Positions 53,058 through 57,466 of a DNA stretch of 64,000 bases are shown piece by piece. The position numbers and the translations under genes were made by a program. The notes beneath the pieces were generated by a model. It had not been told where the DNA came from and did not search any database. It saw only the letters and a program-made list of their open reading frames with translations. Origin of the DNA: Candidatus Tectimicrobiota bacterium (GTDB taxonomy: Bacteria > JACPUC01). The first letter of the stretch is position 1. Each line of letters begins with the position of its first letter. Where the stretch lies: contig JACPUC010000019.1 in assembly GCA_016192455.1 (NCBI GenBank), positions 62,001 to 126,000 on the forward strand, in the 5' to 3' direction.

Positions 53058-54671
53058 CTACTCCTTCGCCTCCTTCCAACCGCGGAACGGCTTGCGGCGC
53101 TGGGCCAGTTTCTCGCCGGTTTCGAGGTAGAGGCCCTGGACGGCCATCTGCGCCTCCTTGTCCCACTCCTCCGGCCAGTAGCCAAGGGCGTAGCCGTGGT
53201 AGGGGTAGCGCGTCTTCAACGGCGGCAAGCCGAGCTCCTCCCAGATTTCCTTCGCATGGTCCATGTACTCCTTCGCCGGCAGCGACACGGTTGGATAGGC
53301 GTGCTTGCGCGTCGCGTCGATGAGCATGGCCGAGGTGCCGACCGGCTTCGGGAAGCGGCGGTCCTCCGTCTCCGTCCCCGAGGGCGCCGCGGAGGGATCG
53401 AGCATGGAGGATTTCCCCGTCGTGATGCGCACGTCGAGGTGCGGCTGCATGCAGAATGAGAGCGCCCAGTTCACCGACTCCGGGTCGTCGGGGTCGATAT
53501 CGGGGTCCACGGTGATGATGATCTTGCCGATCGTCGGGTCGAGGGCGACGGCGGCGTTGAGCGCCTGCCAGGGCTGGCTCGGATTCGTCTTGTCGAGCTG
53601 GATGACGATGTACATCCAACTCCCGCTCATCTCGTGGAAGGCCACCCGCTGCACCGTGGGGATGTTGCAGTCGTACTTCAGGAATTTCAGCATCAGGGCG
53701 TCGTAGCTGATCTTGCGGATCATGCTGCTCTCGCTGGGCGGGAACTGGCTGATGAACGCTTGGTAGATCGGCTTGCGGCGGTGCGTGATGCAGGAGATGT
53801 TGAAGACGTGGTTCTTGGCGCGCTCCCCCATGTAGCCGCTGTACTCTCCAAAGGGAGCCTCATCCTCGAGGTACTCGGTGGAGAGCTCGCCCTCGACGAC
53901 GATCTCCGAGGTTGCCGGCACTTCGAGGTCCACCGTCTCGCACTTCACCAGCTCGATGGGCGCTCCGGCCAGACCTCCCGCGACATCGTACTCATTGACG
54001 CCGTAGGGGATCTTGGCGACGCTGCACATGCCGACATAGGGAACGCAGCCAAGGATGATGGCTGCCGGCAGGTTCTGGCCGAGCCGCCGCGCCTTCTCGA
54101 GGTGGATGCCGATGTGCTGCGCCCCGTGGGTCATGATGCCGGTGCGGGTCCGTCCCTTGATCATGCCGCGGTAGGTGCCGACATTGACAATGCTGGTTTC
54201 CGGATCCTTCGTCACCACGTAGGGAGAGGAGAGGTAGGGGGCGGTGTCATAGCCCGGGGTGGAGATAGGGATGGGGAACTTGTCGATGCCGCCCGCCTCG
54301 AGGAGGGCATCTCCTTGCAGGATGACCTCCTTGACCGGTCCGCCGTCCACCATCTTTGGCGGGATGGGGAAGCGCTGCGCCTGCACCCAGCGTTCCTGAA
54401 TCTCCTCCACCTTGCAGCCCATGCCGGCGGCGTAGATCGGCCGCGAGGCGCCCAGAATCCCCACCGCCACCTTGGCGTCGAAGGAGCGCCCACGCGAATC
54501 CGTGAGGCTCTCAAAGAGAAAGGCCTTGCGCTCATCGCTCGGCAGACCGCGGAACTGCCAGCGCACCAGCGGCATGAGCTCCGTGTCCTTGTTGATCGTG
54601 CGCTTGACGCGGTAGAGCAAGCCCTTCTGATCCAGGTCGTTGATGAAGTCGCGTAGATCCTTATACGCCAT
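53058..54671 (-). CDS. UbiD-family decarboxylase, homologue 3
   Basis: 537 residues from ATG 54671 (MAYKDLRDFINDL, GAGAGGAGAG upstream). Catalytic Glu pair in EDEAPFGEYSGYMG near 285, YLSSPYVVTKDPETSIVNVGTYRGM near 155, and an ITVDPDIDPDDPESVNWAL metal region near 405. It is longest in the middle and C-terminal parts, resembling the phenolic-acid/vanillate or 4-hydroxybenzoate decarboxylase type more than E. coli UbiD. Monocistronic with a strong terminator. Substrate unknown. Confidence 0.9.
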   Translation of the reverse strand: MAYKDLRDFINDLDQKGLLYRVKRTINKDTELMPLVRWQFRGLPSDERKAFLFESLTDSRGRSFDAKVAVGILGASRPIYAAGMGCKVEEIQERWVQAQRFPIPPKMVDGGPVKEVILQGDALLEAGGIDKFPIPISTPGYDTAPYLSSPYVVTKDPETSIVNVGTYRGMIKGRTRTGIMTHGAQHIGIHLEKARRLGQNLPAAIILGCVPYVGMCSVAKIPYGVNEYDVAGGLAGAPIELVKCETVDLEVPATSEIVVEGELSTEYLEDEAPFGEYSGYMGERAKNHVFNISCITHRRKPIYQAFISQFPPSESSMIRKISYDALMLKFLKYDCNIPTVQRVAFHEMSGSWMYIVIQLDKTNPSQPWQALNAAVALDPTIGKIIITVDPDIDPDDPESVNWALSFCMQPHLDVRITTGKSSMLDPSAAPSGTETEDRRFPKPVGTSAMLIDATRKHAYPTVSLPAKEYMDHAKEIWEELGLPPLKTRYPYHGYALGYWPEEWDKEAQMAVQGLYLETGEKLAQRRKPFRGWKEAKE

Positions 54672-54901
54672 CAATGGCTCTCCTCTCCGGTGCATCACGC
54701 CCAGCGCCTTGCCCGCCGGCCTGCCGCGCGCGCCGCGGCCCCGCAGAAATCCCCCCTGCCCCGCGCAGGCGGCAGGGCAAAGTTACCAACATCTTGAGTT
54801 TGACGCAAGGCCGCTGCGGAAAGCCAGCGGCGTGCGCTTGGGGGGAGTGACCCCTGGCGCCGTCTCCTCCAGGCGGCCGCCCATGCGGAGCCTCCTACCC
54901 C

Positions 54902-56239
54902 CTAACGGGCGCAGGTTCGAAAGCCGGCGAAGACGTCGCGCCGGTCGGGCGTAAAGAAGTTGCGCCAGGTGTTGCGGATCATCCGGGCGCGCGTGGCCCA
55001 ACAGCCCCCCCGCAGCACTCTGCGGCTGCCGAACCAGGGTTCGGAGTACTCCTTGTAGGGATCGGGCACGAAGCCTGGATACGGGCCGAAGACGCTGGAG
55101 GTCCACTCCCAAATGTTTCCCAGCATCTGCCGGCAGCCGAAGGCGCTGTCGCCGGCGGGAAGGGCGCGCGCATCGACGGTTCCCGCTCTCCGGGCATCCA
55201 GGTTGGCCCGCCGCGGCGTGGGAGGTTGATCCCCCCAGGGGAACCGGCGTTTGCGCCTGCTGAAGCCTCCGCCGGGGCGCGGCTCGCCGCAGGCGGCCAG
55301 TTCCCACTCCGCCTCGCTCGGCAGGCGCCGACCGGCCCAAGCGCAATAGGCCTCCGCCTCGTACCAGCAGACATGGATCACCGGGTGCCAATCGAGGAGC
55401 GGCGCCTCCCGATCGTACCTGCGAACACCCCAGCCGCCGTCGGCGGCGCGGCGCCAGTAGATGGGATGCTCGGCTCCCGCGGCCTGGCGCCAGGCCCATC
55501 CGACATCGCTCCAAAGCTCTCTGCGCCGGTAGCCGCCGGCCTCGACGAAGGCACGGAACTCGGCGTTCGTCACCGCCGTGCGGGAGATGGCAAAGGGCTC
55601 GATGGGAACAGGATGGGCCCATTTCTCGTTATCAAAGACGAAGGGTAGGTCGGGCGTGCCGCCTAGCATGAAGACGCCGCCGGGGACATCTACATCGCCT
55701 CGGCACGATTCGTCCGCTTGCCCCTGCCCAGCGGAGGACGACTCGGCTCCGCCGCGCTCGTTCGCGGGGGCCGCGAGCTTCGGCTCGGGGTAGGCGAGCG
55801 TCTGCAACATGTAGGTGAACGCTTCGGCGTGCATATCCTCGTGGAAGAGGACGAGCCGATGAAAGTACACCGCCTCGTCGCTGCAGGCGCCTCGCCGAAG
55901 ATGCGCCAGGATGCGTTCCAGGACCTCTTCCATGTAGCGCAGCGTCTCGGCGCGCGACGGCAACGGCAGGTCCCAGCGCGTGTCGTGGGGGATGGCGATG
56001 GAATCGTAGAGAGAATCGGAATCCCCGCGGGGCGCTGCTTCGCCGCGCAGGTGCCGCAGGATCCATTTTTCCTGGAACCAGGCGACATGCCCGATCTCCC
56101 AGCGGAATGGGTTGACGATGTCGAGCTTCGGCCCCATGAGCTGCTCATCGCTCAGGTGCGCCACGAGATCGAGGCTGCGCCCGCGCGCCTCGGATAAGCT
56201 CTCGATGAGGTCGGTTGCCACGTTCATGGAATTTCTCAT
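54902..56239 (-). CDS. senA: Selenoneine synthase SenA-like (EgtB family, DinB + FGE-sulfatase domains)
   Basis: About 445 residues. N-terminal DinB domain with iron ligands in NPFRWEIGHVAWFQEKW and LVLFHEDMHAEAFTYMLQTL (three His), and C-terminal formylglycine-generating-enzyme-like domain ending GNIWEWTSSVFGPYPGF and RVLRGGCWATRARMIRNTWR. This architecture is shared by EgtB (ergothioneine) and SenA (joins selenosugar to trimethyl-histidine). SenA is preferred because senB is the divergent neighbour; EgtD and the rest of the ergothioneine set are not in the window. The start could be 56239 or 56227; neither has a strong ribosome site. SenC was not found nearby. Confidence 0.8.
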   Translation of the reverse strand: MRNSMNVATDLIESLSEARGRSLDLVAHLSDEQLMGPKLDIVNPFRWEIGHVAWFQEKWILRHLRGEAAPRGDSDSLYDSIAIPHDTRWDLPLPSRAETLRYMEEVLERILAHLRRGACSDEAVYFHRLVLFHEDMHAEAFTYMLQTLAYPEPKLAAPANERGGAESSSAGQGQADESCRGDVDVPGGVFMLGGTPDLPFVFDNEKWAHPVPIEPFAISRTAVTNAEFRAFVEAGGYRRRELWSDVGWAWRQAAGAEHPIYWRRAADGGWGVRRYDREAPLLDWHPVIHVCWYEAEAYCAWAGRRLPSEAEWELAACGEPRPGGGFSRRKRRFPWGDQPPTPRRANLDARRAGTVDARALPAGDSAFGCRQMLGNIWEWTSSVFGPYPGFVPDPYKEYSEPWFGSRRVLRGGCWATRARMIRNTWRNFFTPDRRDVFAGFRTCAR

Positions 56240-56488
56240 ACTTCGCGGCTCGCCGTTCGCCGCCCGCCGCTCACCCGGCAGCGACGCCGCTCGTTCCGGC
56301 GGCAGGGTTCTTGCGCCGCGCTCAAACGCGACCACCGCGGCAGTATCCTGGCAGCGCCCAGCCCGGCTGCGCGGGGGAGCGGCGAGACGGGCGATCGTCG
56401 CCCCTCTTCAAAAAGTCTCTCCGGCAATGGCGCTCGGCGGAGAGAAAATGCTACCATAACAACGCCACACCTGAACCAGGAGGCTGCC

Positions 56489-57466
56489 ATGAAGATCTGA
56501 CTCGTGACGCCGGCCCCCGCTCGGTCCCGAAGCGGCAATCGTGCGACAGCCCTGCGCTGGGCAAGAATCCTGCGTGAGCTTGGCCATCGCGTCAGCATCG
56601 AGGTGGCGCACACGGGCGCCCCCTGCGACCTGATGATCGCCCTGCACGCGCGCCGCAGCGCTGCCTCGATCCAGCGTTTCCACCAGCGCCATCCTCAGGT
56701 TCCGCTTGTCGTCACCCTCACCGGCACCGACCTGTATCGGGACATCCAGACGAACCCCCGGGCGCAGCATTCGCTGGAGCTGGCGAGCCGACTCATCATC
56801 TTGCAGCCGATGGGGATTGAAGAGCTCGCCCCGCATCTGCGGGGCAAGGTGCGGGTGATCCACCAGTCCGCCGCGGCGGAGGTGAAGCCTGCGCGCAAGT
56901 CGAGCCGCAGCTTTGACGTCTGCGTCATCGGCCATCTGCGCCAGGTGAAAGACCCGTTCCGGACCGCCATGGCGGTCCGCCGTCTTCCTTCCGACTCGAT
57001 CCTCCGCGTCTTCCACGTCGGCCGGGCCCTCTCCAAGGCGATGGAGCAGCGCGCCACGGCTGAGACGCGGCGCAACCCGCGCTACACCTGGCTGAAGGAG
57101 AAATCCCCCGGCCAGGTGCGGCGGCGGCTGGCGCGCTGCCATCTCCTCGTGCTCAGCTCGAAAATGGAAGGCGGGGCGAACGTCATTTCCGAGGCGCTGG
57201 CTCTCGGCGTGCCGGTGCTCTCCTCGAACATCCGCGGCTCGATCGGCATTTTGGGGCCGGATTATCCGGGCTACTTCCCCGTGGGGAACACTGCTGCCCT
57301 CACGACCCTCTTGCTGCGTGCCGAGACGGAGCCGGACTTCTACCGCGAGCTGCAACGGTGCTGCGCCGAGCGCAAGCCCCTGGTCGACCCAACGCGGGAG
57401 CGCGAGGCGTGGCGGCGCCTGCTTCTGGATCTCCAGCCTGAGCCAGGGAATCAGCGTCTTTCCTAG
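56489..57466 (+). CDS. senB: Selenosugar synthase SenB-like glycosyltransferase, in-frame TGA at codon 4
   Basis: 325 codons. GT-B-like fold: LVTPAPARSRSGNRATALRW at the start, PLVVTLTGTDLYRDIQ near 75 and LLVLSSKMEGGANVISEAL near 217 (nucleotide-sugar site). SenB makes a selenosugar from UDP-GlcNAc and selenophosphate. AGGAGG (56478-56483) sits 5 bases before ATG 56489, giving M-K-I-TGA-L-V-T-P-A-P; homologues typically begin MKI-x-(L/I)VTPAP. The first alternative start after the TGA is GTG 56504, 20 bases from the SD. A SECIS-like hairpin follows. So codon 4 is selenocysteine, or the gene is a nonsense allele or weakly started at GTG. Confidence 0.78.
56517..56535 (+). promoter_or_regulatory. 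SECIS-like hairpin after the senB TGA
   Basis: CCGCT (56517-56521) pairs with AGCGG (56531-56535) around a nine-base loop that carries GGT at 56523-56525. The loop G is 23 bases after TGA (56498-56500). Bacterial SECIS elements are hairpins just 3' of UGA with G/GU in the apical loop; E. coli fdhF has GGU about 19-21 bases after its UGA. The stem is short, and chance similarity is possible in GC-rich DNA. Confidence 0.4.

Follow-up and report, generated by a model that had tools for sequence, protein, structure and literature searches.

In-frame UGA codons in senB: a probable selenocysteine at residue 145 of related SenB proteins and a candidate selenocysteine at codon 4

SenB is an enzyme by which selenium enters a small antioxidant. 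As judged by sequence comparison, it seems that in some bacteria SenB is itself a selenoprotein. In five senB genes related to that of the window (the whole 64,000-nt stretch of DNA that was analysed), residue 145 is specified by a conserved in-frame TGA, which very probably encodes selenocysteine (Sec). The window senB carries its in-frame TGA at codon 4, and we put the chance that this UGA is read as Sec at about even.

A senB gene interrupted by one TGA

The features of the window to which the analysis refers are as follows.

53058-54698, minus strand: UbiD-family decarboxylase, directly 3' of senA and on the same strand
54902-56335, minus strand: senA, selenoneine synthase, divergent from senB, intact (NF041186, 520.8 bits, cut-off 420)
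56478-56483, plus strand: Shine-Dalgarno sequence AGGAGG, 5 nt 5' of the ATG (sequence)
56489-57466, plus strand: senB, selenosugar synthase (Se-glycosyltransferase), with an in-frame TGA as codon 4 (TIGR04348; TAG stop at 57464-57466)
56498-56500, plus strand: the in-frame TGA, codon 4 of senB, where homologues have Cys or A/S/V/I/L/R/H/G/N/T/F/E
56504-56506, plus strand: GTG, alternative start or reinitiation codon of senB (sequence; AlphaFold2 model)
56517-56535, plus strand: hairpin CCGCUCG-GUCC-CGAAGCGG, apical loop at 56524-56527, 23 nt past the UGA
56921-56923, plus strand: TGC, Cys145 of the window senB, the site of the conserved TGA in five related senB genes (alignment)

The gene begins ATG (56489-56491), AAG, ATC, TGA (56498-56500), CTC, GTG, ACG. 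The AGGAGG 5 bases before this ATG and the ensuing M-K-I-TGA, from which the first-pass annotation had started, were confirmed from the sequence, and 5' of ATG 56489 the frame remains open for 14 codons, none of which is an ATG, GTG or TTG start. Over its 325 codons the gene retains the strong Shine-Dalgarno sequence and the ATG, and the TGA at codon 4 is its only internal stop and sole lesion. The protein past the TGA scores 417.7 bits with the equivalog HMM TIGR04348 (cut-off 300) and keeps the substrate and catalytic residues N17, T20, H53, R56, T78, T80, R151, K154, E227 and E235; the selenophosphate and UDP-sugar residues of the Variovorax enzyme are N20, T23, H58, R61, T83, T85, R155, K158, E231 and E239 (PMC10891094). 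The earlier description of an intact SenB-type protein behind the TGA is thus borne out, and the closest solved structures are those of SenB itself (8K5U, 8JJQ and 8FBX; phmmer 224-231 bits).

The register M-K-I-x-L-V-T-P-A is common to the window SenB and all aligned homologues, in agreement with the earlier remark that the residues flanking the TGA fit the expected SenB start. Since this register is shared, the TGA takes the place of exactly one residue, without a frameshift. In the AlphaFold2 model (mean pLDDT 95.2), residues 2-6 form strand β1 of the N-terminal Rossmann domain; codon 4 is not catalytic. Initiation at GTG 56504, which had been offered as an alternative, is a poor choice because it would remove strand β1.

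The gene linkage that goes with SenB was found, with the divergent senA adjoining and selD elsewhere in the genome, on contig C3. The window SenA has its HX3HXE motif in the form HEDMHAE, and the true start of senA is likely downstream of 56335. The genome also holds egtD (372.9 bits), whose own stop is TGA. With senA and egtD present, the TGA in senB is the only interruption of the selenoneine pathway.

Selenocysteine decoding in the window genome

The window genome (G000) is a metagenome-like assembly of 4.46 Mb in 31 contigs, 88% complete. The first-pass annotation had made its proposal depend on selA, selB and selC, and all three were found, selA at 596 bits, selB at 366 bits and tRNA-Sec at 75.5 bits with a UCA anticodon, together with a Sec-type selD whose only in-frame TGA is the canonical Sec site. 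From the presence of these four genes it follows that the genome decodes UGA as Sec; TGA is not reassigned. No in-frame stop was found in 96 ABC_tran, 48 Peripla_BP_6 and 32 Fdh-alpha matches sampled from the genome (about 176 altogether), and the TGA inside the window senB is unusual for this assembly. A formate-dehydrogenase alpha gene (G000:C20:257514-259514, L141; 857 bits, above the family cut-off) has no in-frame TGA despite Sec decoding in the genome. In a codon-usage scan of the window for broken genes, non-coding frames scored as coding at 65% GC.

A conserved TGA at residue 145 in related SenB

A TIGR04348 search of 386 and then 385 genomes extended the comparison. The search patterns behind the first homologue set of 80 loci had missed some nearer relatives; a whole-genome search added 21 loci, giving a full set of 102 SenB, namely the window gene and 101 homologues. 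Five further SenB genes have one in-frame TGA each, all at residue 145 and none at codon 4:

L154, in genome G317
L159, in genome G388
L160, in genome G387
L168, in genome G395
L170, in genome G398

The TGA stands in the context FEV-U-VIGHLRPVKDP or close variants of it, and Arg151, which belongs to the selenophosphate pocket, follows 6 residues later. At least four genera are represented by the five genes, in two families that both differ from that of the window. Cys occupies residue 145 in 65 of the 102 SenB, the window gene included, and the Cys145 genes are interspersed with the TGA145 genes on the tree. Such interspersed Cys and Sec forms are the usual picture of Sec/Cys exchange.

Synonymous constraint is also seen behind this TGA. 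Codons 151-154 (CGT CCC GTG AAG) are identical in all five genes and lie at bSECIS distance; they are the only run of at least three identical codons among 171 one-amino-acid positions, 9% of which are identical overall, while the Cys145 forms have a mean of 0.41 identical codons of the five over 151-155. The five genes (L154, L159, L160, L168 and L170) share the invariant CGTCCCGTGAAGGAY after the TGA and form GUCC-CGUGAA-GGAC with its loop 20 nt past the UGA. This stem alone is weak, at about -3 to -4 kcal/mol, and falls short of the published -7.5 limit.

Of the five genomes, the four that were examined for Sec machinery (G317, G387, G395 and G398) all have a Sec-type selD, and selA-selB-selC was found in one, G317, which was sampled as stretches covering about a third of the genome and has selA, selB and tRNA-Sec on one contig. 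SelD adjoins senB in G387, G395, G398, G386, G389 and G390, and in the first three of these the gene immediately 5' of senB is a selD with a Sec TGA. In the stretches L174-L179, a Sec-type selD stands immediately 5' of senB, with the order senA-selD-senB in L174, L175 and L176. Co-expression of selD with senB is possible, since the two genes adjoin. SenA is intact in every stretch of the related genomes where it was found. The hairpins past the Sec TGA of selD read GGGTCC-GGG-GGACCT in G000 (L147, 1531-1590) and GGATCC-GGG-GGATCT in G317 (L212, 4709-4800), and the compensatory changes between them support these hairpins as SECIS elements.

It is on the conserved TGA/Cys pair, the constraint on codons 151-154 and the Sec machinery or Sec-type selD of these genomes that we take SenB with Sec at residue 145 to be very probably real. 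A literature search, with coverage lying mostly outside subscription journals, returned no report of Sec in SenB.

Codon 4 among SenB homologues

The first-pass annotation had proposed aligning the 5' ends of homologous senB genes for a conserved TGA or Cys codon at codon 4. Cys is indeed found there, in 14 of the 102 SenB, chiefly within a single clade, and each of these 14 carries Cys or TGA at residue 145; TGA at codon 4, on the other hand, occurs in none of the 101 homologues, and the residue is variable. Among the first 80 loci, codon 4 is A in 24, S in 21, V in 12, I in 8, L in 3, R in 3, H in 2, C in 2, G in 2, N in 2 and T in 1, a pattern that, as read from the alignment, is at odds with both a conserved Cys and a conserved catalytic Sec. 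Position 4 has an entropy in the top 7% of SenB positions. Only 8 or 9 positions carry Cys in at least five of the 102 SenB and codon 4 is among them, a count that was made after the data had been seen, so that the Cys-pair argument for codon 4 is post hoc.

On the SenB tree the window gene is placed outside the Cys4 clade, with poor support. The rows closest to it by path carry F, N, C, C and C at codon 4, and R, H or L is seen in many further rows at the base. No close relative of the window genome was found in the genome collections searched or among viral contigs. With no such relative and no homologue with TGA at codon 4, conservation of this TGA cannot be shown.

The hairpin behind codon 4

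In the bSECIS model, a stem-loop lies 16-37 nt downstream of the UGA with an energy limit of -7.5 kcal/mol, and the hairpin behind codon 4, with its GUCC loop and a stability of -8.1 kcal/mol, is within the loop, spacing and energy limits of that model (PMC13188914). At 65% GC, this fit says little. When the 48-nt stretch was compared with shuffled versions, the folding z was 0.14 and 107 of 200 shuffles were at least as stable. In four window genes, a hairpin at least as stable comes after 20-44% of arbitrary codons when the published bSECIS limits are applied, and 22-47% of codons in the same genes pass the -7.5 kcal/mol limit; even with a stricter G[G/U] loop consensus, 14.5% of codons pass by chance. 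Of the 80 senB homologues, which have a sense codon at this position, 15 show an equal or better hairpin and 16 pass the hairpin test.

The true selD SECIS of the window genome, used as a positive control, scores no better than the senB hairpin and fails the synonymous-recoding test too. Consequently, since a true SECIS does not stand out, the hairpin test lacks power. The SECIS search that had been suggested as a check gave no Rfam match at the window senB and none at the true selD. The CCGCT/AGCGG hairpin reported earlier 23 bases past the TGA is therefore present and in the SECIS range, but it is no better than chance. As a proof of Sec it was rejected, given the z of 0.14, the chance rate of 14-47% and a test without power; as evidence for Sec it is neutral to mildly positive.

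Alternative readings of the codon-4 TGA

The weights that we give to Sec, to a nonsense mutation or artefact, and to read-through or restart are judgements and were not computed; the largest is that of Sec. A recent nonsense mutation, a strain polymorphism or a base-call error, by which CGA, TGC/TGT or a similar codon became TGA and the gene is off or a letter wrong, is quite possible without being probable. Codon 4 is hypervariable and encodes Arg in a number of related rows (CGG, AGA, CGT), and a single transition turns the Arg codon CGA into TGA; the TGA is known from one sequence in an incomplete, metagenome-like assembly (88%, 31 contigs), no homologue shares it and its hairpin is at chance level. 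Such a lesion would, however, be alone among the roughly 176 sampled domain matches of an assembly otherwise without in-frame stops, in a gene whose strong Shine-Dalgarno sequence and ATG are kept and which has no further damage. It would also have fallen on one of the 8 or 9 positions that bear Cys in at least five of 102 SenB (again a post hoc point), within a Sec-decoding genome and a family for which a TGA/Cys pair can be demonstrated. Given the residue-145 precedent, Sec is a priori a more likely reading of a TGA in the SenB of a Sec-decoding organism. Single-sequence selenoprotein cases stay candidates, sequencing error being possible (PMC1088965), and by this rule the window senB, as the single sequence with TGA at codon 4, is a candidate.

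We consider it unlikely that the UGA is a stop and that SenB is made at a low level, either by near-cognate read-through of UGA-C or by termination followed by a restart at GTG 56504. UGA followed by C is a weak stop context in bacteria, the stop comes as early as codon 4 of 325 with an in-frame GTG three bases past it, and codon 4, with its entropy in the top 7%, tolerates nearly any residue. Restart at this GTG, on the other side, deletes residues 2-6, the GTG is without a Shine-Dalgarno sequence of its own, and no homologue is experimentally known to begin there. A general reassignment of UGA in the window genome is next to impossible and was rejected: apart from the in-frame TGA itself nothing speaks for it, while the genome has selA, selB and tRNA-Sec, TGA serves as the stop of egtD and the sampled families have no other in-frame TGA, selD excepted.

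Discussion

In bacteria, SelB delivers Sec-tRNA to the UGA, aided by a downstream hairpin. We propose that SenB may be a facultative selenoprotein family, in which a non-catalytic Cys position is UGA-encoded in some Sec-decoding bacteria and read by SelB and tRNA-Sec. In the window gene, the ribosome would initiate at ATG 56489 and SelB with Sec-tRNA would decode the UGA at codon 4, the hairpin at 56517-56535 assisting. Full-length SenB, the consumer of selenophosphate for selenoneine, would then not be made unless Sec-tRNA, and with it selenium, is in good supply. For the window, we infer Sec at codon 4, use of the hairpin and a regulatory role.

The window SenB is like that of Variovorax paradoxus (8FBX/8JJQ; TIGR04348) in being a homologous full-length protein with the same substrate and catalytic residues, encoded beside senA. 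The Variovorax enzyme, in contrast to the window gene with its TGA at codon 4, has no Sec and is hydrophobic at both positions 4 and 145, yet it works. Neither site is therefore catalytic, and SenB catalysis has no need for residue 4; it follows that the benefit may be regulatory. A selenium gate, in which UGA at a tolerant, non-catalytic SenB position (145 in one lineage, 4 here) would act as a switch for selenium status with Sec itself not catalytic, is a doubtful proposal at present.

Like Sec-type SelD, SenB is an enzyme of selenium metabolism that may hold Sec itself, with Sec/Cys exchange in relatives. Unlike the catalytic Sec of SelD in its flexible Se-binding loop (PMC13188914), sites 4 and 145 of SenB, each in the first β-strand of its Rossmann domain, have no known catalytic role. 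Compared with bSECIS elements, the codon-4 hairpin is without evolutionary support, and the limits are reached by chance at 14-47% of codons.

Among known selenoproteins, the majority are redox enzymes that carry Sec at the active site. SenB with Sec at residue 145 is a probable new selenoprotein family, and if the reading is true, a Se-glycosyltransferase with Sec at a non-catalytic β-strand would fall outside this redox pattern. Sec and selenoneine, two big uses of selenophosphate, would be joined in one gene. Since annotation takes TGA as a stop, such genes appear broken or shortened and are missed. The reading further suggests UGA as a means by which the synthesis of an enzyme would be tied to the selenium supply.
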